The notes below the pieces were generated by a model that was not told where the DNA came from, searched no databases, and saw nothing but the letters and a program-made list of their open reading frames with translations. Positions 2,699 to 50,870 of a stretch of DNA of 50,870 nt are shown here, piece by piece; position 1 is the stretch's first letter, and each line of letters opens with the position of its first letter. Origin of the DNA: a virus; the IMG/VR virus record IMGVR_UViG_3300036860_000231, positions 1 through 50,870 of that record. One strand, written 5' to 3'. Both the position numbers and the translations under genes were made by a program.

Positions 2699-3151
2699 AT
2701 GGACCTCGAGCGGCTGGCCCAGATGGTCGCCAAGGCCCAAGACGACAAAGGCATCAGCGACTACGCCCTAGAACACGAGATCGGACGGCCCGGCGGCAAG
2801 GCGTTCAACGCCAAGCAGCTCAAACGCTGGAAGGACGGCGAACGCATCCAAGCCATCCCGCGGCCGGTTGTCCTCCGCATCATCGAGATCCTCGACCTAC
2901 CGGCTGATGAGACTGCCGAGCTGGCGGGCGTGTGGCCACCGCGGCGCACTGCCGCGATGCTCCGCGAACTGGACCGGTCCACTAGCGAACTTACCGCTCG
3001 GTACGTCGGACAAACCGCCTTACCAGTGCCCGCCGAACTCCAGGACGCGGCCCTGCTGCGCCGGCTCGGCGTGCCCAACCTCGAGCGGCGCCGCGCCGAG
3101 CGCCGCCGGCGGCCGCGGCTGGTTCCCCAGATGGAGCAGGTGGCCGCATGA
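2699..3151 (+). CDS. Putative phage repressor (HTH), immunity-type
   Basis: 150 aa. Residues about 8-75 resemble an HTH domain with an atypical long turn (DYALEHEIGR, then QLKRWKDGERIQ), and the C-terminal half is Arg-rich. An SD-like AAGGGGG precedes the ATG. First gene of the rightward operon that ends in the integrase, and divergent from the XRE gene; this is the usual place of a lysogeny repressor. Its last ten residues (LVPQMEQVAA) recur in a 15-codon ORF at 3381. No peptidase domain for RecA-dependent cleavage is seen. Confidence 0.6.
   Translation: MDLERLAQMVAKAQDDKGISDYALEHEIGRPGGKAFNAKQLKRWKDGERIQAIPRPVVLRIIEILDLPADETAELAGVWPPRRTAAMLRELDRSTSELTARYVGQTALPVPAELQDAALLRRLGVPNLERRRAERRRRPRLVPQMEQVAA
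3110..3151 (+). repeat. Gene-end repeat, copy A
   Basis: The 3' end and stop of the repressor-like gene. 36 of 42 bases match 3387-3428. It encodes RPRLVPQMEQVAA and the stop. Confidence 0.85.
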
Positions 3152-3384
3152 ACGCTAGTCACTGGTGGACGACGACGGCATTGTGGCTGCTGCTTCTGCT
3201 GGGTCTGTGCTTCTGGCTGCTCGCCGCGTTCATCCTGCCAGTCATCCTGCACGTCGTCATGCTTGGTGGCGGCAAGACGGTTTGGCTGGAGCTATGCATC
3301 ACCGTCGCCTTCGGGACGTGGGGATGCGCCGCCTTCTGGGTCGCCATCCGCCGCCTAATTCGCAGACATGGTGGTGCCCAATGA
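3148..3384 (+). CDS. Small membrane protein in the lysogeny operon
   Basis: 78 aa with two predicted membrane spans (residues about 9-36 and 46-66) and a basic C-terminus (RRLIRRHGG). The ATG overlaps the repressor stop (ATGA), so it should be made with it from the lysogenic promoter. A prophage-expressed membrane protein next to a repressor often changes the host surface or blocks superinfection; that role is inferred from position only. Confidence 0.65.
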   Translation: MNASHWWTTTALWLLLLLGLCFWLLAAFILPVILHVVMLGGGKTVWLELCITVAFGTWGCAAFWVAIRRLIRRHGGAQ

Positions 3385-3428
3385 CTCGGCTGCGGCTGGT
3401 CCCCCAGGTCGAGCGGGTGGCAGCATGA
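3381..3428 (+). CDS. 15-codon coupled mini-ORF copying the repressor tail
   Basis: It encodes MTRLRLVPQVERVAA. It overlaps the upstream stop by ATGA and the downstream ATG by ATGA, so it is fully embedded in the translational chain. The sequence is an 86% copy of the end of the repressor-like gene. It may be a leftover of a gene swap that now only keeps ribosomes coupled. Confidence 0.5.
   Translation: MTRLRLVPQVERVAA
3387..3428 (+). repeat. Gene-end repeat, copy B
   Basis: Imperfect direct copy of 3110-3151 (6 mismatches in 42), including the stop codon and the A of the overlapping start. Confidence 0.85.
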
Positions 3429-3628: not shown

Positions 3629-4623
3629 GTATCGCCCTACCTACAGCAACGACCGCACCGATATCCGCTGTTTGCGACTTGGAGCGGTCTGTCCCCTTGG
3701 GCCAGGATGCGACGCCCGGCGCCCTGGCACCAGCCGGTCAGTTTCGCACCAAGGGGGGACCTTTGCCATCCACCGCCGCATGGGAACGGTATGTGCTGCT
3801 GCTACGACGCCGTCGCCGCAGCCAGGAAACCATCGACCTGTACCGGGTCGTCCTCAGAGAACTGTGGGCGTTCCTGGCCGACCAGCACCATGACTGGCGG
3901 CAGGTGACCCCGGAACTGGTGGACGCCTGGCTGGACAGCCAAGTCCGGGCGGCGTGGACCCGCAACACCTACGGCCGCGTCGTCCGCCGCTTCTACGCCT
4001 GCGCCGTCAGTCGCGGCTGGCTGGACGGTCCCAACCCACTCGAGGACTGGACCCCACCCCCAGCGCCCCCACCGCGGCCCCGCGCGCTACCGCTGGACGC
4101 CATCGGCGAACTGCTGGCGGTCGTGGACCCGAGGATCCGCATGATGGTCCTCCTGGGCTACTTCCAGGCGCTGCGGGTCGGGGAGATCGTGCGCCTGTCC
4201 GTCGAGGACCTCGCGCTTGGCGCGGACCCGCCGATGATCCGGATCGACGGCAAGGGCGGCAAACAGGTGTGGATGCCGCTGTCCCCGGCGCTGGTCGGCC
4301 CGCTGCGAACCTTCCTGCTGCTCCGCCCGGCACGGGGCCCGCTCATCCCCAACCACCGCGACCCCGACCGGCACCTGCATCCCAAGTATGCGGCCCATCT
4401 GCTGGCCAGCGTGATGCGGCCCGTGGTCGGCGACAGTGGGCATGCGTTGCGGCACACCGCCGCCCGGCAGCTCCGCCGTCAGACCCACGACCCGTTCCTG
4501 GTCCGCGACGCGCTCCGCCATGCGGGCCTGGGATCGTTGGAGTTCTACACGCAGGACCCGGAGACGCTGGCGGCCGCGCTCGGCCTGCTCCCCGACCCGC
4601 TGGGCGACGGTGCCAGCCGGTGA
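3625..4623 (+). CDS. int: Tyrosine recombinase / phage integrase
   Basis: 332 aa. Residues about 50-130 form a SAM-like core-binding domain (TRNTYGRVVRRFYAC), then the catalytic domain. The catalytic set is complete: R184 (QALRVGEI), K213 (GKGGKQVW), H273-x-x-R276 (HALRH), H299 and Y308 (SLEFYTQ). The first 48 residues are a poorly structured extension. GTG start, GTGA-coupled to the previous gene. It would insert the phage into, and with an excisionase remove it from, the host chromosome. I could not identify attP. It converges on the small leftward gene at 4627. Confidence 0.93.
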   Translation: MSIALPTATTAPISAVCDLERSVPLGQDATPGALAPAGQFRTKGGPLPSTAAWERYVLLLRRRRRSQETIDLYRVVLRELWAFLADQHHDWRQVTPELVDAWLDSQVRAAWTRNTYGRVVRRFYACAVSRGWLDGPNPLEDWTPPPAPPPRPRALPLDAIGELLAVVDPRIRMMVLLGYFQALRVGEIVRLSVEDLALGADPPMIRIDGKGGKQVWMPLSPALVGPLRTFLLLRPARGPLIPNHRDPDRHLHPKYAAHLLASVMRPVVGDSGHALRHTAARQLRRQTHDPFLVRDALRHAGLGSLEFYTQDPETLAAALGLLPDPLGDGASR

Positions 4624-7423: not shown

Positions 7424-7773
7424 GACACCTTGGCGATCACGAGGTCGTGGCATTCACAGAGGCACGACGTCCCGTCGTTGCCGCACGGCTCGTGGTTGTC
7501 CCCGAACTTCTCCCAGCGGTTGCGGCAGTTGAGGCTGCGCATGGTCTCCTGCGCATGCTGCTCGCCACGTCGGCGCCCTTCCCTGATCCGCTGTTCCCGC
7601 AGCCGGGCCCGCTCGGCCACGTCGGCCGGATAGTCGATCATGCTGGCATCACCTCCATGACCAACACGAAAACAGGTGAGCTGCGTGTGGACAGCGTCAG
7701 GGTCGTCGAGGCGGCCACCGCAAGAACATGAGGTCCCTGGCGGCATCTCCCGCAGCGTCGTCGGCGGGTTCAT
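7420..7773 (-). CDS. Cys-rich hypothetical protein
   Basis: 117 aa. Two Cys clusters, CSCGGRLDDPD near the N-terminus and CGNDGTSCLCECH near the C-terminus, flank an Arg/Glu-rich helix. It looks like a zinc-bound two-knuckle protein. Its first six residues (MNPPTT) and the underlying 20 bases are identical to those of the next upstream gene. A second start with a strong GGAGGTGAT site exists at the internal MIDYPADV. Confidence 0.6.
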   Translation of the reverse strand: MNPPTTLREMPPGTSCSCGGRLDDPDAVHTQLTCFRVGHGGDASMIDYPADVAERARLREQRIREGRRRGEQHAQETMRSLNCRNRWEKFGDNHEPCGNDGTSCLCECHDLVIAKVS

Positions 7774-7774
7774 G
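7755..7774. repeat. Gene-start repeat, copy A
   Basis: 20-bp perfect direct copy of 8090-8109 that spans the start codon and the first six codons (MNPPTT). Confidence 0.9.
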
Positions 7775-8108
7775 CTGGTATCCACTTTCCTTCCCGGATG
7801 AATCCGTGGTCGCCGCAGGAGCACAGCAGCGACGGGCTGAGGGTGAGCGGCTCCCAAGACTCGACCGTCCACCGCGACTTGTCGGGGAAGACTCGTCGTG
7901 CGGTCTCGCTGTCGAAGAAGATCGCGCCCTCGCACAATTCGCCGTCGGCCTTGCGGTGCGCGATGATCGCGCCGATCCACTTGACGTCGGGCAGGTCGGC
8001 GTATTGCGGGTTGAGTTCCCGATCAGGTGCCCAGGTGGTATAGCGCAGCATGTGATCGTGGCCGAGGTCGAGGGAGTCGCTCACCTGCGGCGTCGTCGGC
8101 GGGTTCAT
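7770..8108 (-). CDS. DUF6527-like protein
   Basis: 112 aa ending in a Cys-rich motif of the type C-x-CGDHGFIREGKWIPA, preceded by WTVESWEPLTLSPSL. This tail matches what I know of the DUF6527 family, small zinc-binding proteins common in phages and genomic islands, of unknown function. ATG at 8108, ATGA-coupled to the next gene. Lies between the endolysin and the lysis-end genes. Confidence 0.6.
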   Translation of the reverse strand: MNPPTTPQVSDSLDLGHDHMLRYTTWAPDRELNPQYADLPDVKWIGAIIAHRKADGELCEGAIFFDSETARRVFPDKSRWTVESWEPLTLSPSLLCSCGDHGFIREGKWIPA

Positions 8109-8109
8109 G
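8090..8109. repeat. Gene-start repeat, copy B
   Basis: Perfect 20-bp copy of 7755-7774 at the start of the neighbouring gene. Confidence 0.9.
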
Positions 8110-21671: not shown

Positions 21672-22160
21672 CTAGGTGGTTCGCGCTTCCCAGACGATGG
21701 TCCAGTCGACGTTGACGCGGGCGACCGACACGCGATCCTGCTCCCCCAACCCCATCGTCCATACCGCCGACTGCATCAATGGGGGATTGCGGTGCCGTCC
21801 CGCGAGCGCCCCTGCGAAGTCGGGGTCGTCGCGGAGCTGCTGCATGATCTCCCCGAGCAGTACACCGGCCCGTCGGATCGCCGCGGCGGCCTTGGCAGTG
21901 TCCCCGCCGGGAAGCTCGACCCATACGTAGCCGGCGAGCGTGGGTGGCTCAAGGGTGGCGCGGCTGGCTTCCCCGCCACCCCAGCCGAAGAACCCGGCGC
22001 CGGCGACGGTGCAGCGGGTGAACCCGATCGCCTCCGGGTCGGTGGTGACCCCGAGGTCGACGAGATAGACGGGGACAGCTGGTGGGCCGACGAGGGCGGG
22101 GCGGGCGGCGAGCTGGGCCTGAAGGCTGATGAGGACGTCGGGGACCGAGGTGGTGGCCAT
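21672..22160 (-). CDS. Tail terminator / neck protein
   Basis: 162 aa, alpha/beta with VPDVLISLQAQLAARPALV at the start and a final strand DRVSVARVNVDWTIVWEAR. Size, order (after the connector, before the tube) and the start-end pattern fit a tail terminator. No enzyme motif. Confidence 0.5.
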   Translation of the reverse strand: MATTSVPDVLISLQAQLAARPALVGPPAVPVYLVDLGVTTDPEAIGFTRCTVAGAGFFGWGGGEASRATLEPPTLAGYVWVELPGGDTAKAAAAIRRAGVLLGEIMQQLRDDPDFAGALAGRHRNPPLMQSAVWTMGLGEQDRVSVARVNVDWTIVWEARTT

Positions 22161-25040: not shown

Positions 25041-25052
25041 GTAGGTTCCTTT

Positions 25053-25229
25053 CTACCAGCGTCCGCTGTACTGGCTGACGATCGGTGGTGGCGTCTGCCC
25101 GGCGCGGCGCCACAGCAGCAGGGTGAGCAGGTCGGCGAGGTCGCCGAGCCGCAGCCACGCCACGGCCGCCACAACGACAAGACCCTCGAGCAGCGTGGCG
25201 GCGAGCAGAATCATCCACATGGCTACCAC
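25053..25229 (-). CDS. Small membrane protein ending SQYSGRW
   Basis: 58 aa from GTG at 25229, which follows AAAGGA by six bases (a GTGA-overlap start at 25244 is possible). One hydrophobic span (MWMILLAATLLEGLVVVAAV). The last residues VSQYSGRW are identical to the end of the upstream gene, and the duplication includes stop and ribosome site. Confidence 0.6.
   Translation of the reverse strand: MVAMWMILLAATLLEGLVVVAAVAWLRLGDLADLLTLLLWRRAGQTPPPIVSQYSGRW
25055..25088 (-). repeat. Gene-end repeat (SQYSGRW module), copy A
   Basis: 34 bases, 31 identical or nearly so to 25243-25276 (2 internal mismatches), encoding the same C-terminal residues; the neighbouring AAAGGA is also shared. Confidence 0.85.
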
Positions 25230-25240
25230 GACGGGTCCTT

Positions 25241-26056
25241 TCACCAGCGGCCGCTGTACTGGCTGACGAACGGTGGGATCACCCCGGCCGCTGGGGCGGC
25301 CCCGGACGGGTTGAGCGCAAGGATCGTGCCCTGCCCGACCGCCGAGTCGGTGATCGTCACCACTTCGGAGGCCGCCGCAGCGGTGCCCTGCGGCAGGTAC
25401 TGAATGTCACCCCAGACGTTGGTGACCGCCGCGATCGAACACTGGTTGATCGCGCCAGTGTCGGTCCACCCGGACGCGACGCTGATCGTCTGGGTGACGC
25501 CGACGCCGACCTTCCCACCCCAGACCAGCACGAGCATCGCGAGGTTCTCGTCGGGGGTGAGCGTCCCCGACGTGTACGTCCCGGAAGATGCTTGGGCGGT
25601 CTGCTGGAAATCGTTGTCATTCGGGCCGAGCGGATGGGTGGTGTCGACCCCACGGAACGCGGCCGCATGGGTCGACCAGGACCGGGCGGTCGACAGGGTG
25701 AACCCTGGTGCGGTGTCCCCCGAGACGAAGAATCGGGTATAGGTCGCGGTCCGGATCGACGTGTCGCTCAGGTCCGAGATGAGCGTCATCGTCGCGCCGC
25801 TGGTCTGGCTGATCGTGGTCGGGGTGCCACCCGACCCGTAGGTCACCTCGAGGACGATCAGGTCCCCGTCGGTGAAGTCGCCGGTGGGCCATGCGGTCGT
25901 GACGGCGGTACCTTGTGCGGCCGCGGCGGTGGTCCCGTCGGTGCCGACCTTGGTGATCGGGGAGACCGCCCCGGCGGCAGACGCAGGCTTGATAATGCGG
26001 GTGCCGAGCCGCGCCCGGGGCAGCCTTGGTCGGCGGATCGGCCGGAGGACCGGCAT
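25241..26056 (-). CDS. Virion beta-sandwich protein ending SQYSGRW
   Basis: 271 aa. Basic N-terminal arm (PVLRPIRRPRLPRARLG), then a beta-sandwich of the type DGDLIVLEVTYGSGG...WSTHAAAFRGVD. The same fold pattern recurs at 26524, at the start of 27285 and at the end of 11283. Probably an exposed head or tail decoration. Its last residues PPFVSQYSGRW are copied in the next gene. Confidence 0.6.
   Translation of the reverse strand: MPVLRPIRRPRLPRARLGTRIIKPASAAGAVSPITKVGTDGTTAAAAQGTAVTTAWPTGDFTDGDLIVLEVTYGSGGTPTTISQTSGATMTLISDLSDTSIRTATYTRFFVSGDTAPGFTLSTARSWSTHAAAFRGVDTTHPLGPNDNDFQQTAQASSGTYTSGTLTPDENLAMLVLVWGGKVGVGVTQTISVASGWTDTGAINQCSIAAVTNVWGDIQYLPQGTAAAASEVVTITDSAVGQGTILALNPSGAAPAAGVIPPFVSQYSGRW
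25243..25276 (-). repeat. Gene-end repeat (SQYSGRW module), copy B
   Basis: Matches 25055-25088 with 2 mismatches, offset 188 bases. Confidence 0.85.
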
Positions 26057-32616: not shown

Positions 32617-32955
32617 TTAGTCTTCCGTTGCTGCGTCGAGCCGTTCCTGGAGCTGCGCCTTGGTGCCGTAGGTCGGTAGGCCCTGGGCTTCCGCCTGGGC
32701 GCGCAGATCCGCCAGGGTCGGCTCCGGCGGCTCCGGCAGTGCTGGCGGCTTCTCCTCTTCGAGGATGACTCCGCCACCGCCGGCGCAGTGTGCTCGGTAC
32801 CAGTCCACCGCCGCCTGATCACCGTCGTCGACCTCGACGACCTCATCGGCAGCCCAGGACTGGTAGCCGCTCGGGGTGTAACCCGAGTTCGGCCCGACCA
32901 GTTGCACTCGCATCGGTTGGGCTCCTGTCAGAGGAGGTACCAGTTGCACTCGCAT
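32617..32955 (-). CDS. Small virion protein with SAP/HeH-like end and duplicated start
   Basis: 112 aa from the upstream ATG or 98 aa from the second ATG at 32913; both have CAGGAG at the same distance because of a 42-bp tandem duplication. Residues about 80-112 (TLADLRAQAEAQGLPTYGTK) resemble a SAP/HeH motif. Directly downstream of the major capsid gene; candidate decoration or head-completion protein. Confidence 0.65.
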   Translation of the reverse strand: MRVQLVPPLTGAQPMRVQLVGPNSGYTPSGYQSWAADEVVEVDDGDQAAVDWYRAHCAGGGGVILEEEKPPALPEPPEPTLADLRAQAEAQGLPTYGTKAQLQERLDAATED

Positions 32956-32981
32956 CGGTTGGGCTCCTGTCAGAGGAGGTA
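32898..32981 (-). repeat. 42-bp tandem duplication across a gene junction
   Basis: Two perfect adjacent 42-bp copies. Each copy holds the last codons and stop of the capsid gene, CAGGAG, an ATG and five codons (MRVQL). Because 42 is a multiple of three, both starts are in frame. Confidence 0.95.
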
Positions 32982-34244: not shown

Positions 34245-35701
34245 CGGTCCCTCCCCAGGGCCTGGTTGATCTCGGCCTCAAGACGGTCGAGATCGCCCGA
34301 CGTGCGCAGGTTCTCGGTCTGATTGCGCGACCCGTCGAGCAGTTGCTGGGCATGGGCGAGGAGCACGTCGGTGCCACCTTCAGCGGCCGAACGTGGTTCG
34401 CCTTCGGGTGCGTCGCCACGCGGCCCTGGGTTGATGATCCCGAGCGCGTACTGCTCCGGGGTCACCATCAAGCCATCAGGTTTCGCAGTGCCCCCGGCCG
34501 GCGTGGTGCCGGTGGTGGCGGCTGCGGGGATGGTGGGCTGCCCGTCGGCAAGCCCGGCCACCTCATTGTCGGGATTGTACACACCAAGAAGCGCATGCAC
34601 AGCGGCTTTGGCGGCCGGCTCGTAGGTGAGCTCCAGCGCCTTCCGCAGCTCGGGGGCCCACACGTCATAGCCGAGGCTTGACTGGCTGGACATGCCCGCC
34701 AGCGACAGCAGACTGGGTGGGGGGTCCTCGCCGAGCTGGCTGCGATATAGGCCGACCAGCGCCCGGGCGGCCGCACGCTTCTTCTCCGGGCTGACCCCTT
34801 GCACTGCGCCGACCCCGTGCCCGCCGGCGGCGGCATGGACGCCGTTGCGGTTCAGCGTCCCTGACGGTTCCCGCACCGGCAGCTTGTAGCCGGCCTTGGT
34901 GTCGGTGGCGCCTTCCACGGCGATCAGGCAGGCGCGGCGCCACTGCTCCAGCGTGTAGTCCGCCTCGGTGAACTGCGACCATGGCGTGTCGGAAACCGCC
35001 TTGTGCTCACCCAGCGACTTCACTGACGCAAGCTGCGCCTGCGGATTGGCTGGCACCGGGGTGAGCGAGATCTCCAGCAACCGCGCCTCGCGGACCGCCC
35101 GGATCGCCTTGCCGTCCTTGACCTGTATCGACTGGTGGACCGGCAGCCACCCGACCGACACGCCGGACAGGTGCCCGTCCTTGGCGAGCTGTCGGGCCCG
35201 CTGGCCCTGCTCGTCATGGGTGAACCCAGCGCGGAACCATAGCCCCTGCGCGACCGACTTGAGCTGGGCGACCGACCCGATGATCCGGCTGATTGAGTCG
35301 CCATGCCAGTCCAGCAGCGGGACCTTCGCCTTCGACCGGGACCAGTCCTCCGCAGACTTGGAGAACGCGCCCGTCTCCAGCAGGTCGTCCTGCAAGTCGA
35401 CGTTGCCGTAGACGGCGGCCAGCCCGGTGATCTCACCACCGCCCTGGTCAGTGACGGCCTTCTGCTCGATCTGCGCGAACAGCCGCCGAAGTTCGTCCAT
35501 CTGCTCCACCTCACGGGTTGCTGCCTGCTGGCCGGCTGTCGGCTCGTTGGCATACAGGGCGCGCTGCTGCGCAAGAGCTCGTTCTCTGGTGGGATGGCAG
35601 CCCTCGATCGAGTGACGACCCTCAGCTTCAGCCCGCTGGTTGACGACTGCCCATTCACCAGCGCGGCATGCCGGATGGTTATGCTCGACGGTCCACGGCA
35701 T
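34241..35701 (-). CDS. HK97-type prohead protease with long C-terminal extension
   Basis: 486 aa from ATG at 35701 (WTVEHNHPACRAGEWAVVN, a common N-terminus in actinophages). Residues about 85-240 are the U35-like protease: GLAAVYGNVDLQDDLLETGA, PLLDWHGDS with catalytic His, KDGHLSGVSVGWLP with catalytic Ser, REARLLEISLTPVPANP. The C-terminal 220 residues are Pro/Gly-rich and may act as scaffold. It overlaps the portal end by 23 bases. Confidence 0.85.
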   Translation of the reverse strand: MPWTVEHNHPACRAGEWAVVNQRAEAEGRHSIEGCHPTRERALAQQRALYANEPTAGQQAATREVEQMDELRRLFAQIEQKAVTDQGGGEITGLAAVYGNVDLQDDLLETGAFSKSAEDWSRSKAKVPLLDWHGDSISRIIGSVAQLKSVAQGLWFRAGFTHDEQGQRARQLAKDGHLSGVSVGWLPVHQSIQVKDGKAIRAVREARLLEISLTPVPANPQAQLASVKSLGEHKAVSDTPWSQFTEADYTLEQWRRACLIAVEGATDTKAGYKLPVREPSGTLNRNGVHAAAGGHGVGAVQGVSPEKKRAAARALVGLYRSQLGEDPPPSLLSLAGMSSQSSLGYDVWAPELRKALELTYEPAAKAAVHALLGVYNPDNEVAGLADGQPTIPAAATTGTTPAGGTAKPDGLMVTPEQYALGIINPGPRGDAPEGEPRSAAEGGTDVLLAHAQQLLDGSRNQTENLRTSGDLDRLEAEINQALGRDR

Positions 35702-41953: not shown

Positions 41954-42150
41954 GGGGTCTCCTGCGGGTCGGGGTCGGCCGGTGCTCCAAAGACACATGG
42001 TGTGCCGTTCGAATGGATCGGCCGACTGTGGTCATACCACCACGGCAACCCATGGAACGCCTCCGTGCAATGCACGCAACACAGGTCGCCTGGTGGTTCA
42101 CAGTGCACGCCGTGCAGGTCACAGCAGGTCGTGCGGACGGGCGCGCTCAT
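41950..42150 (-). CDS. Cys/His-rich mini-protein
   Basis: 66 aa with CCDLHGVHCEPPG, CCVHCTEAFHG and later Cys: enough ligands for two zinc ions. ATG at 42150 overlaps the upstream stop. Part of the zinc-ribbon series. Confidence 0.65.
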   Translation of the reverse strand: MSAPVRTTCCDLHGVHCEPPGDLCCVHCTEAFHGLPWWYDHSRPIHSNGTPCVFGAPADPDPQETP

Positions 42151-42251: not shown

Positions 42252-42438
42252 CGGCATCGCCGAGTCGGCAGTTAGGGTGGCAAGGCCAGCCCAGCGGATG
42301 CGGATGCACAACCTCCGAGACGCCGAAGTATTCGGCCGCTGACACCAAGACCGGCTCGCCGTTCGCGTTGCGAAGCGGTTCATAGATCTCGGGGGTCCAC
42401 AGCGGGTCGATCACAACTGGGGGGTCAGGGTCGGGCAT
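42244..42438 (-). CDS. Small hypothetical protein
   Basis: 64 aa: PLWTPEIYEPLRNANGEPVL, AAEYFGVSEVVHPH, CHPNCRLGD near the end. Preceded by AAGGAGCACCCC, the ribosome-site type used by its neighbours. A single Cys pair. Confidence 0.6.
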   Translation of the reverse strand: MPDPDPPVVIDPLWTPEIYEPLRNANGEPVLVSAAEYFGVSEVVHPHPLGWPCHPNCRLGDADG

Positions 42439-42453
42439 GGGGTGCTCCTTGGG

Positions 42454-42690
42454 TCAGCGCTCGGTGCCAGCCATTGCTGGTGTCGCCGGACCCGGCCAGC
42501 CTTCCTGCTCGGCCAGCCACCCGCGGGCAAGCCGCCACGGACAGTCCGTGGCGTGGATGTACTCGCGCAGATCGCGGACCGGGTCCCAGCGGCCTTCGCA
42601 GAGCGTGCAGTGCCCCTGGTCGTCCATCGGCTCGGCCGCTCTGGCGAGCAGCAGGACGATCTCGGCGGCGGTCGTATACGGGTCGGGCAT
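42454..42690 (-). CDS. Small zinc-ribbon protein
   Basis: 78 aa with GHCTLCEGRWDP, then EYIHATDCPW: Cys2-His-Cys type zinc site. AAGGAGCACCC precedes the ATG. Helical N-terminus (AAEIVLLLARAAE). Confidence 0.65.
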   Translation of the reverse strand: MPDPYTTAAEIVLLLARAAEPMDDQGHCTLCEGRWDPVRDLREYIHATDCPWRLARGWLAEQEGWPGPATPAMAGTER

Positions 42691-42709
42691 GGGTGCTCCT
42701 TGGGGTCGG

Positions 42710-43177: not shown

Positions 43178-43939
43178 TCAGGGTCGGGGGGACCGGGGCC
43201 GGGTGGTAGGTGGTTCACGGCCACGGTGCCGCTTGCCGCGTCCTGAACGTCGGGTGGGTCGAGCTGCCTGGCCGGGAGCTGCCTGCTGCGCGGTTGCTGC
43301 GGCGGCGCTCACCGGTGGCGCGTCAGACCCTGACGCCTCGGTGGGGGCGGTGCCGAAGAGGTCGGCAAGTCGTTGCCGTTCGGCTTGGCGGTCAGCGATG
43401 GTTTTGGCGGTCAGATCGGCCTTGAGGGTGGCGAGGGTGGCGGCCGCGTCCGGCGGGACACCGTTGCCACTTGCCGAGCGGCTGCCGAGCGCGTCAGCGC
43501 TCGGCTCGGCAGCCGCGGTCGATGCGCCAGCGGTTTTGATTCGATCTTCTTCAGGTCTTATTCCACCTATAGACGGACCCGCAGATCGAGTCGCTACGGG
43601 ACCCTGGATCGAGTCGCTACGGTCCGCAGATCGAGTCGCTACGGAGTCATCCACCGACTGTAGTGACTCGATAAGCGAGCCGCTACAGATGCGGTAGGTG
43701 GTCGCCTTCCGGCCGGACCCGTTCACCACGATCTCGATCTCGCCGGTCGCCAACAGTTCCCTGAGGGCGAGATGCACGGTTGAGCTGGACACGTTCGCCT
43801 CGAGTGCGAGCGTCCGACGTGACGCGTAGCTGTCGCCGGTCTTGTAGTCGGCATGGGATGCGAGGGCGATCAGGACGAGCCGAACGGCACCACTGGTGTG
43901 GCTTCGTTTCATGACGTCACGGATGGCGTCGAGGCTCAC
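43178..43939 (-). CDS. Winged-helix DNA-binding protein (replication initiator-like)
   Basis: 253 aa. Residues about 12-85: SGAVRLVLIALASHADYKTG, ASRRTLALEANVSSSTVHLA, LRELLATGEIEIV: the winged helix of phage replication initiators. The rest is low-complexity and charged. GTG overlaps the upstream stop (GTGA). Near-identical short repeats of the type TCGAGTCGCTACGG lie inside the gene at about 43580-43680 and could be iterons. Confidence 0.7.
   Translation of the reverse strand: MSLDAIRDVMKRSHTSGAVRLVLIALASHADYKTGDSYASRRTLALEANVSSSTVHLALRELLATGEIEIVVNGSGRKATTYRICSGSLIESLQSVDDSVATRSADRSDSIQGPVATRSAGPSIGGIRPEEDRIKTAGASTAAAEPSADALGSRSASGNGVPPDAAATLATLKADLTAKTIADRQAERQRLADLFGTAPTEASGSDAPPVSAAAATAQQAAPGQAARPTRRSGRGKRHRGREPPTTRPRSPRP
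43560..43690. repeat. TCGAGTCGCTACGG iteron-like repeats
   Basis: GATCGAGTCGCTACGG occurs three times (around 43577, 43603 and 43629), with degenerate copies after (AGTGACTCGATAAGCGAG-like). They lie inside the winged-helix gene, the classical place of a phage replication origin. It may be the origin bound by that protein. Confidence 0.55.
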
Positions 43940-44118: not shown

Positions 44119-44770
44119 GAGTGTCCTTCTTCCGCTGAGGGCCGCGATGCGGCCACGACTCGCGTGGCGATCTTGAGAAGTCGGTCTCACGCTCGAGCTC
44201 GTCGATGGCCCAGTGGAAGTCGTCAAGCGACGCCTCTTCCAACCGCTCGGCGGTGATGATGCCGGGGGCGAGCTTGCGGCGCCGCGTGGACTCGGGACTC
44301 TCCTCAAGGATGAAGTCGCCTGGGAACTCGTCCCAGCGGAAGACGAAGAACGAGCTGGACCCATCGGGGTTCTCGAACTCGCGGCCCATAGTCGGCTCGT
44401 AGACCGCGCGGAACACCTCGAGGTCAGCGAAGGTCCACAGTGGGATCTCACCATCGGCGCGGCCGAAGCCGTAGAGGAAGAAGTCGCCGGCGCCTTCCAG
44501 TGCCTTGGCGAGTTCGGTGGTTGTCCCCCAGCGTGGCCGGCTGGCGCGGACGGTGAACTCGTACCAGTGGTGCTCCCACTTCTCGTAGCGCCGCAGCCGG
44601 CAGGCGACGCTGAGGTCACCGGAGCTGTGGATGACGAGGTCGCTGTTGCGGTGGCGGTCTTCCCGCCAAGTGCCACGCCGGACGGTTCTGGGGGCGGCGG
44701 TGGCGGCGATGCTTTGGAGCTTGCGGTTGTAGCGCCGCTGCCAGTTGAAGTCGTTCTCGAAGCTAGGCAC
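44111..44770 (-). CDS. Conserved protein, possible PD-(D/E)xK-like fold
   Basis: 219 aa from GTG at 44770 that overlaps the methyltransferase stop. Core: RHRNSDLVIHSSGDLSVACR, then HHWYEFTVRASRPRWGTTTE and ALEGAGDFFLYGFGR. An Asp...EFTVR spacing resembles PD-(D/E)xK nuclease cores, and the fam pattern is one I have seen next to phage methyltransferases. Nuclease activity is inferred only. Confidence 0.55.
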   Translation of the reverse strand: MPSFENDFNWQRRYNRKLQSIAATAAPRTVRRGTWREDRHRNSDLVIHSSGDLSVACRLRRYEKWEHHWYEFTVRASRPRWGTTTELAKALEGAGDFFLYGFGRADGEIPLWTFADLEVFRAVYEPTMGREFENPDGSSSFFVFRWDEFPGDFILEESPESTRRRKLAPGIITAERLEEASLDDFHWAIDELERETDFSRSPRESWPHRGPQRKKDTHD

Positions 44771-45926
44771 TGGCGGCCACCTCGTTCCCCCAGACCTGGA
44801 ACCCTTCGCGCTCGCCGCGCTCGAACATGGCCAGCCGTGGGCCGGGAGTGGCCTGGCAGACCCGCTCGTAGAACACGTCGGGTTTGATTGAGTGGCCGAT
44901 GGCTGGCGCCTCGAATGACAAGCGCAGCCCTTGGCGCAGCAGCGGCAGGTCACCGACGCGGCCGAACAGGACGTGCTCGGTGTCGTACATCCACGAGAAC
45001 GGCGTGGGGCCGACGTTCTTCCGCCACGTCATGACGCACTGGTAGCGGACTTCCCATGCCTCGAAGAGGGCGAGGCCAGCCGGAAGGAACTTGTGGGTCA
45101 CCCAGAGGTAGAGGTGCGCGCCCTGCTGGTCGAGCATCCCGGGGATCGGTAGTTCCTTGATCTCTTCGAGCGTCATCGTCGGGTAGTCGAGTGCTGGTCC
45201 TTGGTCCGGGCGCGCTTCGCGTTCGATCTTCGGCATGGGCCAGGGTGGGTCCAGCGTGATGCACTTGAACGGGCCTTCAGGGAACCCGGGGGTGACGGCC
45301 GGCTGGGGCGTGTTCAGCGACGCCTCGTATTGCCGCACGATCTGGCCGATGCGCTCGGCGGTGATGTGGTAGTCGGCCGCGATGCTGGACAGCAGTTCGC
45401 CGGCTTGGCGTCGCTCGAAGATGACTTGCCGGGCGTGCTTCGGGACGCTGAGACGCTGGTCGACCAAAGCTTTGGCGGATCCGCCATCGCTTTGATGCTC
45501 CCAATCGCGAGCCGTCTCACGCGCCACGCCAACCAGACCAGCCGCCTCTTCCTGCGTGCATCCGGCCTCGCGCAGGTCGAGGTAGACCTGTCGTTGGTAC
45601 TCGCGGACGGTGGCACGCTGTTCGGGCGAGAGTTGGCGCCGTGAAAGGTTCGCGGCTAGCGCGAAGGCTTCCTTGTGTGCCTCGGATGGGAACGACCGCC
45701 GCTCGATCTCTGGCGTGATGCCGAGTTCATCGCAGGCCAGCTGCCGATGATGGCCGTCCAGCACGAAGCCGGTGTCAGCGTCGATCACGATTGGGCTGTG
45801 AAGGCCGCCGCGGGCGGCGATGTCGGCCTTCAGCGCCTCGTATTCGGCGCGTGACAGCGGCGGCAGGAACTGGTACGGGTCGCGCGGGGGATGCGCGGCG
45901 GACGACGTGGGGGTAGCGTCAGGCAC
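44763..45926 (-). CDS. ParB-like domain fused to MT-A70 adenine methyltransferase
   Basis: 387 aa. Residues 15-105: ParBc (YEALKADIAARGGLHSPIVI, TGFVLDGHHRQLACDELGI). Residues 110-200: HTH part (TQEEAAGLVGVARETARDWE). Residues 215-387: MT-A70 methyltransferase with CITLDPPWPMPK, catalytic DPPW. GTG with GAGGAGG upstream. It likely methylates phage DNA at N6-adenine and so may protect against host restriction. Confidence 0.88.
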   Translation of the reverse strand: MPDATPTSSAAHPPRDPYQFLPPLSRAEYEALKADIAARGGLHSPIVIDADTGFVLDGHHRQLACDELGITPEIERRSFPSEAHKEAFALAANLSRRQLSPEQRATVREYQRQVYLDLREAGCTQEEAAGLVGVARETARDWEHQSDGGSAKALVDQRLSVPKHARQVIFERRQAGELLSSIAADYHITAERIGQIVRQYEASLNTPQPAVTPGFPEGPFKCITLDPPWPMPKIEREARPDQGPALDYPTMTLEEIKELPIPGMLDQQGAHLYLWVTHKFLPAGLALFEAWEVRYQCVMTWRKNVGPTPFSWMYDTEHVLFGRVGDLPLLRQGLRLSFEAPAIGHSIKPDVFYERVCQATPGPRLAMFERGEREGFQVWGNEVAASA

Positions 45927-47084: not shown

Positions 47085-47272
47085 CGGTCACCCCGCTTGG
47101 GGGTACACCAGGGCGCCAGCTCATCGAGGCCGGTCTTGTGGGGGACGGGCTGTTTGAGGGCGGGGATTGGGCGGCCGCGGTTGACTCTAGGGCCGCGGAC
47201 GACTCGCCATGCGATGTCGCGGCCGCAGCGGGGGCAGGGCTTTCGGTCGAGGGTCCGGCGGGTGGTGGTCAT
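47081..47272 (-). CDS. Small zinc-ribbon protein
   Basis: 63 aa with RKPCPRCGRDIAWRVVRG and a later WCTP. Basic. ATGA-coupled. Confidence 0.6.
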   Translation of the reverse strand: MTTTRRTLDRKPCPRCGRDIAWRVVRGPRVNRGRPIPALKQPVPHKTGLDELAPWCTPKRGDR

Positions 47273-47610
47273 GGCGCCACTCCAGGCTCATAGCCGGTCA
47301 CCGGCAAGCCGAGGTGCTTGGCGACCTGTTCGAGGTACCACTGTTTGTGGTGGGCGCCGTCGGTGTGTAGGCCATGGGAGACGATGGCGGTGATCGCGTT
47401 GCGGTGTTCATCTGTGAGCTGAATGTCGCCGTGGCCGGCTTTGCGGGCCTCGCGGGCGATCGCAGACCATGCCAATGACAGCAACGCCTCCCGGACGGTG
47501 TGGTCATGGTCGACCTGACCCATGTGGTCGCCTTCAGCCGCCTGAGCAGCGAGGTTGGCGCAGCTGACGGCCCGCTCGAGCGCGTCGGCAGCCCGGAAAT
47601 AGGGGCTCAC
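47269..47610 (-). CDS. Hypothetical helical protein, GTG start
   Basis: 113 aa: SPYFRAADALERAVSCANLA, EALLSLAWSAIAREARKAG, LTDEHRNAITAIVSHGLHTD. GTG overlaps the upstream stop (GTGA) within the junction repeat. Function unknown. Confidence 0.65.
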   Translation of the reverse strand: MSPYFRAADALERAVSCANLAAQAAEGDHMGQVDHDHTVREALLSLAWSAIAREARKAGHGDIQLTDEHRNAITAIVSHGLHTDGAHHKQWYLEQVAKHLGLPVTGYEPGVAP

Positions 47611-47643
47611 CGGTCGACCTCCCGCTGTGCCGCCTGGTCGAGG
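47607..47643 (-). repeat. 37-bp junction repeat, copy A
   Basis: Perfect copy of 48028-48064. Encodes LDQAAQREVDR, the stop and the GTG of the next gene. Confidence 0.95.
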
Positions 47644-47795
47644 GCCTTCTCGAATAGCTCTGCCCATTCCCACGGCTCAAGAGCGCCATATTCGGCGATG
47701 TAATAGCTGATGGTCTTCTGTAGCCGCTCGACCTGGTCTTGTGCCTCGAAGGTGTTGCGGTCGGCCTGGTCGAGGGGGCGGCGGGCGGCGGTCAT
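47607..47795 (-). CDS. Small coiled-coil protein ending LDQAAQREVDR
   Basis: 62 aa: FEAQDQVERLQKTISYYIAE, helical, with the repeated C-terminus. ATGA-coupled to the upstream zinc-ribbon gene. Function unknown. Confidence 0.65.
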   Translation of the reverse strand: MTAARRPLDQADRNTFEAQDQVERLQKTISYYIAEYGALEPWEWAELFEKALDQAAQREVDR

Positions 47796-48031
47796 GGGTG
47801 CAGGTCCTCTTCCGCCCAGTGGACCCGCAGTTCACGCATTCGCTTTCTGTCTTCGAGCGCGTCGGCGATGATGATGCGGCGGACCTGTTCGGCCGACAGG
47901 TAGTGGCAGTGGCATTGGCAACCCCACAGGCCACATTCGTCGCAGCGAGCGTCGAAGCAGGCGCGGGACAGTGGCCCGGGGTGGCCCATCTTTCGTTCGG
48001 CGATTCTCGCCGCGACCTCTTCGCCGGTCAC
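47792..48031 (-). CDS. Zinc-ribbon protein, GTG start
   Basis: 79 aa: TGEEVAARIAERKMGHPGPL, CDECGLWGCQCHCHYLSAEQ with five closely spaced Cys and two His. GTG overlaps the preceding stop (GTGA). Last helix charged. Confidence 0.65.
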   Translation of the reverse strand: MTGEEVAARIAERKMGHPGPLSRACFDARCDECGLWGCQCHCHYLSAEQVRRIIIADALEDRKRMRELRVHWAEEDLHP

Positions 48032-48064
48032 CGGTCGACCTCCCGCTGTGCCGCCTGGTCGAGG
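48028..48064 (-). repeat. 37-bp junction repeat, copy B
   Basis: Perfect copy of 47607-47643, again over a gene end and the following GTG start. Confidence 0.95.
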
Positions 48065-48297
48065 TGTCCCCATCGGATGGCGGTCCGTTGCCGCTGGCAG
48101 GCAACTCGAGCATGGCTCAGAGCGGTGTCGAGATCCAGGTTGAACGGCGCATACGAGAGGGCGAGGCCGGCTGCCTGGATGGCCTGGTGGAGGTCGGGCG
48201 GGCCGGCCGGGGCGCCCGTGGGATTGGTTGCCCCGGCCGGCCCGGTCACATCGGCACCGCTCCCGCGTTGTTCGGGTACCCAAACCGGGACCTGCAT
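48028..48297 (-). CDS. Small protein ending LDQAAQREVDR
   Basis: 89 aa from ATG at 48297 (AGGGAGG eight bases upstream; other in-frame starts at 48303 and 48306). Ala/Gly/Pro-rich N-terminus, then DLHQAIQAAGLALSYAPFNL. Shares its last 11 residues with the gene at 47607. Confidence 0.65.
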   Translation of the reverse strand: MQVPVWVPEQRGSGADVTGPAGATNPTGAPAGPPDLHQAIQAAGLALSYAPFNLDLDTALSHARVACQRQRTAIRWGHLDQAAQREVDR

Positions 48298-48299
48298 GG

Positions 48300-48478
48300 T
48301 CATCACCTCCCTGGGGCTGCTCGACCTTGGGGTCGGCCAAGTCCTTGAACTGGTCTGTCACGTCGTACTTGGTGATGGCTTCGATGCGGCCTTTCTCAGC
48401 GTCGAGGACCTTGTAGCGCGTGACGACATAGACATGGTCGGTAAGCCCACTACGCATGAGCTGGGGATGCTGCGGCAT
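48300..48478 (-). CDS. Small protein, 3' end unresolved
   Basis: Codes for PQHPQLMRSGLTDHVYVVTR, then EAITKYDVTDQFKDLADPKV. Its frame has no stop before the next gene; it stays open to 47792 through that gene's other frame. A one-base difference would let it end at TGA 48300-48302, right at the next start. ATG at 48478 overlaps the annealing-like gene's stop. Confidence 0.5.
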
Positions 48479-49374
48479 CAGTCCTCCCCTTCGTCGAGGA
48501 GGTTCGGCGCCAGCCCGGGGTGACCCTCGGCTTCCCCGTCCTCGGGCTGGACCGGGCTGGCGGCCGCCTGGTCCGCGGCGGAGCCCCGGGGGGACTGCGG
48601 CTCCGCCGCGGACACCTTGGCACCAGCCGGCCGGCCAGGGTCGCCGTCGTCACCAGCCGGCCGGCTGGAGGAAACCTCACGCTCGATCGCACGTTCAAGC
48701 TGCCGCAGCTGCCCCTTGGCGAGCGGCCGCTCATAGCCCTTGGACTCGAGCCACGTGGCGACCCACTCCCGCAGGCCATGATCTTGGATGCGCTGGCCGA
48801 GGTCGGCGTGGGCGCGCTGCTGCTCAGCGAGGTCTTTCCAGCCCGGTGCCACGCCCTTGCCGCCCGACACGGTCTCCCCGCGGGCGGCGGCGGCCTCCAT
48901 CTCCTCAGCGGGGGTGGTGTCGTAGCCGGCGAGCTTCATCACGAACCCGAGCGGCATCCGCAGCGCCTTCGAGCTCGCACGGGTGATCGCCATGCTGCGG
49001 AGTTGGAAGCTCGGTGCGTCCCGCCATTTGGCGTTCTCGTCGCGGGTGCATTGTGCGTCTGCGCGGCCCACGATAGTGCCGGCCATGGTGCGGGCCTCGA
49101 CGGTCGCCTCGTAGCCGACCTCGATGTACTCGGGATCGAGGATGGGTCCGGATGAGACTGTGACGGCGAACACGCCGAGCATGGTCCCTGCGAGGGTCCA
49201 CCCTTCGAGGAAGACGTGCTCGGACTGGCCAATCCGCTTGGCGAGTTGGCGTTCTCGGATGAGGGGAGCGATGACATCGGCGATGGCGGTGGCGCGGGCG
49301 ACGATGGCGTGCGGGGTCGCGTCGCCGAACAGGGTCATCGCCTGCCGGTCGGGGCTGAGGTCGAGTTCGCTCAT
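48478..49374 (-). CDS. Recombination/annealing-type protein (putative)
   Basis: 298 aa. HVFLEGWTLAGTMLGVFAV, FQLRSMAITRASSKALRMPL, GFVMKLAGYDTTPAEEM is a pattern I associate with phage proteins placed among recombination genes (ERF/Rad52-like in style). C-terminal 90 residues are low-complexity, as in single-strand annealing proteins. ATG at 49374 overlaps the upstream stop (ATGA). Confidence 0.5.
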   Translation of the reverse strand: MSELDLSPDRQAMTLFGDATPHAIVARATAIADVIAPLIRERQLAKRIGQSEHVFLEGWTLAGTMLGVFAVTVSSGPILDPEYIEVGYEATVEARTMAGTIVGRADAQCTRDENAKWRDAPSFQLRSMAITRASSKALRMPLGFVMKLAGYDTTPAEEMEAAAARGETVSGGKGVAPGWKDLAEQQRAHADLGQRIQDHGLREWVATWLESKGYERPLAKGQLRQLERAIEREVSSSRPAGDDGDPGRPAGAKVSAAEPQSPRGSAADQAAASPVQPEDGEAEGHPGLAPNLLDEGED

Positions 49375-49568
49375 GCGTTCACCCACGCCTCGAACCAGTG
49401 GTGGATGCCGAGGTTGCTTGCCTGCGGGACCGGGTCGGGCGTGAGGTGGACTCCCAGGTTGTTTGCCTGCGGGATCGGAGCCTGGATGCCGTGCTTGGCC
49501 CCTCGGCATTGGGTACAGCGGCACCGCTTCGGGTCACTGCTTGAGTGTTCGCATTGAAGGTTGTGCAT
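49371..49568 (-). CDS. Cys-rich CxC-xx-C protein
   Basis: 65 aa. CEHSSSDPKRCRCTQCRGAK with following HG is a zinc motif seen in actinobacterial and phage small proteins. Imperfect internal repeat (PIPQANNLGVHLTPD / PVPQASNLGIHHWFE). It overlaps the preceding gene by 35 bases. Confidence 0.7.
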   Translation of the reverse strand: MHNLQCEHSSSDPKRCRCTQCRGAKHGIQAPIPQANNLGVHLTPDPVPQASNLGIHHWFEAWVNA

Positions 49569-50436: not shown

Positions 50437-50724
50437 TCACGGACTCGTTGTGGGGATGAGCTCGACCCGGCCGCCACAGCGGGGGCAGGGCTTGCGGGTC
50501 ATGGCTTCCCTGTCATTCCGGTAGGTGGCTTCGAAGTCGAACCGGTAGGGGTGCTCTGCGGACCCGTCACCGGTTGACACGGCTGCCCCTCGGATGAACC
50601 GCTCGCCCTTCCAGCCGCAGGGCTCGCCATTGGTTGGCCGCTCGTAATGCACGGGGCCAAGGCCAAACGGTGCTGGATCCCTGGCGACTTGGCCGCCGCC
50701 GGCGCAGCGGACGTTGGCGCTCAT
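50437..50724 (-). CDS. Zinc-ribbon small protein
   Basis: 95 aa. GLGPVHYERPTNGEPCGWKG in the first half, KPCPRCGGRVELIP at the end. The ATG overlaps the upstream small membrane gene (ATGA). The 5' part is repeated at 1-92. Unknown function. Confidence 0.7.
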   Translation of the reverse strand: MSANVRCAGGGQVARDPAPFGLGPVHYERPTNGEPCGWKGERFIRGAAVSTGDGSAEHPYRFDFEATYRNDREAMTRKPCPRCGGRVELIPTTSP

Positions 50725-50846
50725 CGGCGGGCCTTGCGGTAGGTAGTGACCCACCGGCGTCGGCGGGCGCGGCGGACGGCGACCCGGACGGCCACCGGCG
50801 GGGTGGCAAGGATCGTCAGGAGCAGGACGGCGGCGGCCACCCTCAT
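50721..50846 (-). CDS. Small membrane protein, 41 aa (right copy)
   Basis: Same gene as 89-214 with A17P, L22V and I24V changes; hydrophobic N-terminus and basic tail conserved. Confidence 0.6.
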   Translation of the reverse strand: MRVAAAVLLLTILATPPVAVRVAVRRARRRRWVTTYRKARR

Positions 50847-50870
50847 GGCCCTCTCCCCCCACCCGGGTCG
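50843..50870 (-). CDS. Charged protein, 3' end only (cut by window end)
   Basis: The last 8 residues and stop of the gene seen complete at 211-630. It is truncated here by the end of the window. Confidence 0.6.

Follow-up and report, generated by a model that had tools for sequence, protein, structure and literature searches.

The 37-bp repeat that we call J1 lies in a run of small genes on the minus strand of a viral genome, the whole of which (50,870 bases, ~67% G+C, making up one complete viral record in IMG/VR) is referred to here as the window. Its two copies, at 48028-48064 (copy 1) and 47607-47643 (copy 2), are identical at 37/37 bases (self-BLAST E 9e-12) and both lie at gene ends, as a preliminary description of this DNA had reported. 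Read on the minus strand, J1 is CCTCGACCAGGCGGCACAGCGGGAGGTCGACCGGTGA, which encodes the last 11 codons of a gene and its stop (...LDQAAQREVDR*) and carries a GGGAGG ribosome-binding site; the following gene begins at a GTG in a 4-nt overlap with that stop (GTGA). Copy 1 forms the 3′ end of the gene at 48028-48297 (89-92 aa) and is followed by a 79-aa mini-gene of family F82 at 47792-48031, whereas copy 2 forms the 3′ end of a second mini-gene, at 47607-47795 (62 aa), and the start of the gene at 47269-47610 (113 aa), all on the minus strand. The searched viral contigs contained no relatives of the 62-aa and 113-aa proteins (the mini-gene proteins P0001 and P0003), and the mini-genes around J1 matched no Pfam or PHROG family.

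The window encodes a portal, a head protease, a major head protein, a large terminase, a tape measure protein, an endolysin and an O-like replication-initiation protein, together with a tyrosine integrase at 3697-4623 on the opposite strand, and the structural set and the integrase identify it as a temperate HK97-type siphophage. Our own gene caller placed 84 of the 92 genes on the minus strand, and gene starts throughout this work are its predictions, with no curated annotation. A 238-bp direct repeat at the window ends (1-238 and 50633-50870, 96.6% identity) raises the possibility of a complete, circularly permuted genome whose ends overlap inexactly. A 21-nt repeat occurs three times with a spacing of 22-23 (43579-43644) within the O-like replication initiation gene (43178-43939), as would be the case for origin iterons located within an O gene. 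ParB-like domains are present in two separate genes, at 875-2299 and 44763-45926, the second of which also matches a DNA methyltransferase. The window is not close to any phage isolate: searches of isolates returned one weak match only with blastn of the right end and no match with megablast of the left half or with tblastn of F3, a predicted annealing protein described below.

J1 in related phages

Seven related viral contigs, recruited via the protein encoded at 48478-49524 and with G001-G003 and G005-G007 among them, were read whole. With the window they make up a comparison set of eight related contigs, seven of which come from a narrow series of metagenome identifiers. Between any two contigs, 0.6-30 kb of DNA can be aligned, at 67-87% identity, so that the eight are mosaics of one another, and we refer to them as a group of uncultivated temperate soil phages.

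The 37-mer recurs in these relatives with 2-9 mismatches, every time at a gene junction. When weaker copies are included, J1 is found 14 times in six phages (two copies each in the window, G001, G006 and G007, three each in G002 and G005), and all 14 share the reading phase of the upstream gene and lie 24-39 nt from the end of that gene. They follow seven unrelated gene families and precede eight unrelated ones, and this recurrence beside other genes means that J1 is not a private duplication of the window. The F82 mini-gene is 94% identical in G001, where it is preceded by a J1 whose upstream gene is unrelated, and the alignment between the two phages extends from J1's left edge as far as 17 nt inside the following gene, and no further on either side. 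A degenerate J1 pattern searched against all viral contigs revealed no further group, and the matches in L011, L015, L016 and L018 were rejected, each being a lone, weak hit away from any matching junction. Separately, a stretch at 48168-48222 (peptide DLHQAIQAA), within the gene upstream of J1, is common to G001, G002, G005, G006 and G007 at 92-100% identity. It occurs in otherwise differing genes (F14 and others) and is another portable stretch, this one internal to a gene.

Junction families and their slots

Over the eight phages we distinguished 15 junction families, some with two members only, which cover 53 of the 664 gene starts. Besides J1, the clear families are J2 (...ADPDPQETP*/ATGA), J3, J4, J5 and, in G003, J6, and further families act as J1 does, to a lesser extent. 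J2 is located at 41954-41984 on the minus strand of the window (GGCCGACCCCGACCCGCAGGAGACCCC followed by ATGA) and is also found in G002, G005, G006 and G007 before unrelated genes. A start-side junction at 42423-42456 (minus strand) is common to G001, G002, G005 and G007 and is repeated in the window at 42680-42704. J6 forms the longest array seen, with four successive mini-gene junctions at 34533-35523 of G003 (L025:14533-15523) reading CACCCGAAGGTGAGCAGCCATGACCGACC.

Each family has its slot: J1 is found between F14 and F13, J4 between F3 and F18, and J2 and J3 before F30. The J1 slot reads F14-J1-F39 in G006 and F14-J1-F91-J1-F39 in G002 and G005, where F39 ends with another J1 variant; it reads F14-J1-x-J1-F13 in G007, F14-J1-x-J1-F82-x-F13 in G001 and x-J1-F82-x-J1-x-F13 in the window. 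The J4 slot is F3-J4-F18 in G001 and G006 and F3-J4-F41-J4-F18 in G005. Outside the slots, F39 and F45 have relatives with different C-terminal tails, so the tail belongs to the slot, not to the body of the gene. For pairs of junctions with unrelated genes on both sides, identity is 0.86 at positions -20 to -1 and 0.30-0.33, the chance level, in the flanks; because the families were picked by their core similarity, the core value is not evidence, and it is the chance-level flanks that are. The 4-nt overlap is present at 35 of the 53 junction-family sites compared with 192 of the 611 others (Fisher p 1e-6), which bears out the earlier suggestion that coupling is kept intact.

Repeats at gene starts

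Four other repeat pairs of the window had been grouped with J1 as stop-and-start junctions duplicated around a small gene. All of the pairs are real, but they are of mixed types and not all of them are stop/start junctions around a small gene. The first (3110/3387), at 3110-3151 and 3387-3428 on the plus strand, is identical at 36 of 42 positions and consists of stop/ATGA junctions flanking a 78-aa gene at 3148-3384, with copy 1 spanning the end of F9 and the ATGA start of the mini-gene and copy 2 lying before F75. The pair at 7746-7774 and 8081-8109 (minus strand, 26/29 identical, formerly listed as 7755/8090) covers gene starts (MNPPTT...) and not gene ends; the copy at 8081-8109 belongs to the gene at 7770-8108, and the copy at 7746-7774 to the next gene, which has an ATGA overlap and a start at 7773 that was read from the sequence by hand, the gene caller having chosen 7641. 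At 25044-25088 and 25233-25276 (minus strand, 41/45 identical, formerly 25055/25243), the repeat covers gene 3′ ends (...SQYSGRW*) and a ribosome-binding site, before a 158-aa gene and before a 58-aa mini-gene (25053-25229), respectively, and since the same pair is also present in G001 it was inherited. The last pair, 32897-32938 and 32939-32980 (minus strand, formerly 32898/32940), is a perfect 42-bp tandem over a ribosome-binding site and start, with no gene between the copies. This tandem comes directly after the major capsid gene and creates a 9-codon ORF (MRVQLVPPL) with its own ribosome-binding site. One common mechanism for the five cases of the window cannot be assigned with certainty.

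Both copies of short-range direct repeats lie at gene borders in four of five cases in the window (0.23 expected), and in the eight phages both copies lie on gene starts in 15 of 31 direct repeats (0.15 expected, with a maximum of 2 in 2000 randomisations). When scanned at equal stringency, the eight phages had 18 of 27 repeats on two starts (0.52 expected), or 5.2 per 100 kb, compared with 4 of 34 (0.4 expected), or 0.37 per 100 kb, in 65 control contigs that carry the F3 family and comprise three times as much sequence. Nine GC-rich controls had none of their six direct repeats on two starts. These repeat pairs are not all independent, because a family with n copies yields several pairs, and the four copies in G003 alone make six. 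Among the short islands shared between phages, 15 of the 36 in the window contain a start codon (2.07 expected). As a positive control, the scan found the published pair of Island3 (58 bp, 91%), which was the sole pair in that phage; the repeats of phiC31 were also considered as start junctions and rejected, as they are intergenic. A comparison with random positions had been proposed in the preliminary description, and its outcome is that repeats at gene borders are far in excess and those at random internal positions are not equally frequent.

Filled and empty sites

Checking presence and absence in relatives, as had also been proposed, revealed filled and empty sites with repeats around mini-genes. 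Our strongest single result from sequence comparison is the 3110/3387 locus, which is F9-J-(78 aa)-J-F75 in the window and F9-J-F75 in G001 (at 21756), an empty site where the mini-gene is absent. From -70 to -31, the identity of the G001 junction is 95% with window copy 1 and 30% with copy 2; from +1 to +70 these values are 31% and 100%, and copy 2 equals the single G001 junction from about -30 onward. As it matches copy 1 upstream and copy 2 downstream, a crossover inside the junction is indicated. In G001 the end of F9 is of the copy-2 type, and more nearly so in G006, suggesting by parsimony that the window gained the 78-aa gene; for all cassettes, the direction of change (gain or loss) is taken from parsimony and from nothing else.

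A second recombinant is seen at F65/F64, where, set against G006, G002 (and G007) is 99% (87%) identical to copy 1 upstream and switches to copy 2 within the junction. At F14/F39 and F3/F18 a clean fit is confined to the downstream side, as the upstream genes themselves have variable ends. Counting by local alignment with the repeat-rich family F0 left out, we found junction repeats in 6 of 34 filled/empty sites (0.34 expected). The distribution is bimodal, and the six sites with junction repeats are all single-gene. A start-anchored version of this comparison was dropped because it missed offset copies and was inflated by F0. At one-sided mosaic joints, the 55 downstream-shared pairs have an identity of 0.39 at -20 to -1. 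Since 28 of the 34 sites and most one-sided joints lack such a sequence, junction exchange is not the general means by which these phages swap genes; by these counts it operates beside other routes and accounts for a minority of cases.

A predicted annealing protein next to the J1 slot

Just upstream of the J1 slot, F3 (48478-49374, minus strand) encodes a protein predicted to be of the Rad52/RecT/ERF single-strand-annealing type. The prediction comes from its AlphaFold model (mean pLDDT 78), for which Rad52 took VIA-align ranks 1-7 among the re-aligned chains, with Z scores of 7.0-7.6 (below 8), and the annealing protein Mgm101, again among re-aligned chains, scored 6.5-6.8. RecT- and ERF-named viral models were among the BFVD matches at E<=0.001, Foldseek on the PDB gave no match at E<=0.001, and the protein matched nothing in Pfam. 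The F3 family, annotated in PHROG 19042 as of unknown function, is widespread in phages; it has an invariant TPAEEM motif and no fewer than 438 relatives among viral contigs, and a search of genome contigs found distant relatives only. F3 may have a role in junction recombination; it would not be sufficient, as the 65 control contigs carry the family without the repeat pattern.

Discussion

We think it probable that the 37-mer belongs to a set of several boundary sequences at which homologous recombination adds, removes or swaps mini-genes in temperate siphophages. Such a boundary block of 20-40 nt is made up of the last codons of the upstream gene, its stop, and the following gene's ribosome-binding site and start, and each junction family is tied to one syntenic slot. 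When copies of one junction recombine, whether between two phages or within a single phage, any upstream gene of the slot would be joined to any downstream gene, and a mini-gene could enter, leave or be exchanged while the reading frame, the stop and the coupled start are preserved. Two direct copies around a mini-gene would then be the signature of an added cassette, and the exchange may proceed by short-homology single-strand annealing, possibly via the Rad52-like F3. The genomes compared here document that unrelated genes share these junctions in constant phase, and that there are filled and empty sites and two recombinant junctions. Such a pattern is what homologous recombination over 20-40 nt would produce. 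As stop, ribosome-binding site and start are held together in the junction, an exchange within the block would leave the translation of both neighbours intact, which may explain why these joints survive selection.

A translational or regulatory element, that is, a start-associated signal (ribosome-binding site plus factor site) under selection at many genes, of the kind put forward for the Start Associated Sequences (SAS) of cluster K mycobacteriophages, with sharing that would reflect function and not exchange, is in our judgement an unlikely explanation. A Shine-Dalgarno-like sequence is present at the right distance in the clear families, even ordinary orthologous junctions are somewhat more conserved at -20 to -1 than in their flanks (0.89 vs 0.78), and the position is like that of the SAS (PMC3203893). 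However, the junctions fall into several dissimilar slot-bound families instead of one consensus over the early region, their conservation reaches upstream codons beyond any ribosome-binding site, the empty sites are recombinants, and neither RNA structure (z 0.59 and -0.45) nor promoter- or terminator-like sites were detected at the junctions. A regulatory role would also keep junctions alike and is compatible with a role in recombination, so the two are not exclusive. The SAS and ESAS of cluster K are repeats right before the starts of small non-structural genes of differing families, with an AGGAG motif; SAS is one 13-bp consensus, GGGATAGGAGCCC, located 3-7 bp before starts in 11-19 copies per genome, part of it paired with inverted repeats (PMC3203893). 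Both kinds of repeat stand immediately upstream of small-gene starts, but those described here are 20-40-bp blocks in several unrelated families, with 1-4 copies per family and genome, that extend into upstream codons, and the SAS consensus is absent from the J1-J6 alignments, so that J1-J6 were rejected as SAS.

The preliminary description explained the repeats by duplication of a junction in place, after which the middle was filled or replaced. Just one case in the window looks like plain duplication, namely the 42-bp tandem that covers a start at 32897-32980, and the two window copies of J1 are identical. Nevertheless, copies of J1 stand beside other genes in other phages, no junction duplicated around random DNA was seen in the eight phages, and the copies at 3110/3387 differ at 6 of 42 positions, with copy 2 equal to the single junction of G001. 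Diverged copies, one of which is the junction of a relative, fit recombination between pre-existing junctions better than a fresh duplication, and we therefore regard duplication followed by filling as very unlikely.

Site-specific insertion, in which a recombinase or homing endonuclease would recognise the junction in an integron-like manner, appears highly improbable. The arrays with a common junction in G003, G005 and G002 do resemble integron arrays, being tandem small genes with the same junction at the 3′ side, but at least six unrelated junction sequences occur in one group, the switch points vary in position within the block, and the mini-genes around J1 are without Pfam or PHROG matches. 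The only integrase among the window proteins scanned is the ordinary tyrosine integrase at 3697-4623, and with no dedicated integrase among them, no attC structure and many unrelated junctions, integron cassettes were rejected. Chance, Shine-Dalgarno bias or an assembly artefact can practically be dismissed, for although 37-bp repeats can confuse short-read assembly and GC-rich DNA raises chance matches, 15-18 cases were seen where 0.15-0.5 are expected at random, the GC-rich controls gave none, and the same blocks recur in independent contigs from several metagenomes.

Boundary recombination of the kind we propose has a close precedent in cluster I mycobacteriophages, where a small gene of Island3 (gp67/gp68) is flanked by ~60 bp of 3′-end sequence in common with the upstream gene, and Brujita has a single recombinant copy where Island3 has two, with C-terminal residues duplicated; the case was described as the first such event in mycobacteriophages (PMC3029335). 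The 3110/3387 locus, with two copies at the filled site and one recombinant copy at the empty site, is the same kind of event. Island3 and Brujita represent one locus in one pair of phages, while here several loci and families are involved in eight phages, with series of one to four cassettes. More generally, short conserved boundary sequences at mosaic junctions have been proposed as recombination points of phage modules (cited in PMC3029335). The junctions described here resemble them in that short homology lies at the border, the flanking genes are unrelated (J1), the switch falls inside the shared sequence (window and G001; G006 against G002 and G007) and homologous recombination is proposed. 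They appear to differ in that the block is the translational junction itself, is slot-specific and occurs in tandem arrays. Boundary sequences at mosaic junctions were reportedly put forward by Susskind and Botstein in 1978 and, for HK620 and lambdoid phages, by Clark in 2001, and while the idea is old, clear multi-locus cases are to our knowledge rare. Rad52-like phage recombinases have been found by experiment to carry out relaxed homologous recombination over long diverged homologies, such as regions of 88-95% identity (PMC3945230). That work and ours have in common exchange between temperate phages at limited homology and a Rad52-like protein, here a predicted one, but the homologies here are of 20-40 nt and the inference is drawn from sequence only.

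What is new is how many loci are involved, together with the families bound to particular slots, the series of cassettes and the tally of sites that lack such sequences. Boundary joints can be identified at many loci with empty, filled and recombinant sites, and their share can be counted (6/34), which makes the question testable. A more far-reaching possibility, which we put forward tentatively, is an integrase-free cassette system, with slot-specific junctions kept as landing homologies for an annealing protein and mini-gene arrays that grow, shrink and swap, perhaps under selection. If true, this would be a regular, perhaps selected, mode of accessory-gene exchange. Our findings suggest how phages gain many small accessory genes while the translation of the neighbouring genes is left undisturbed.
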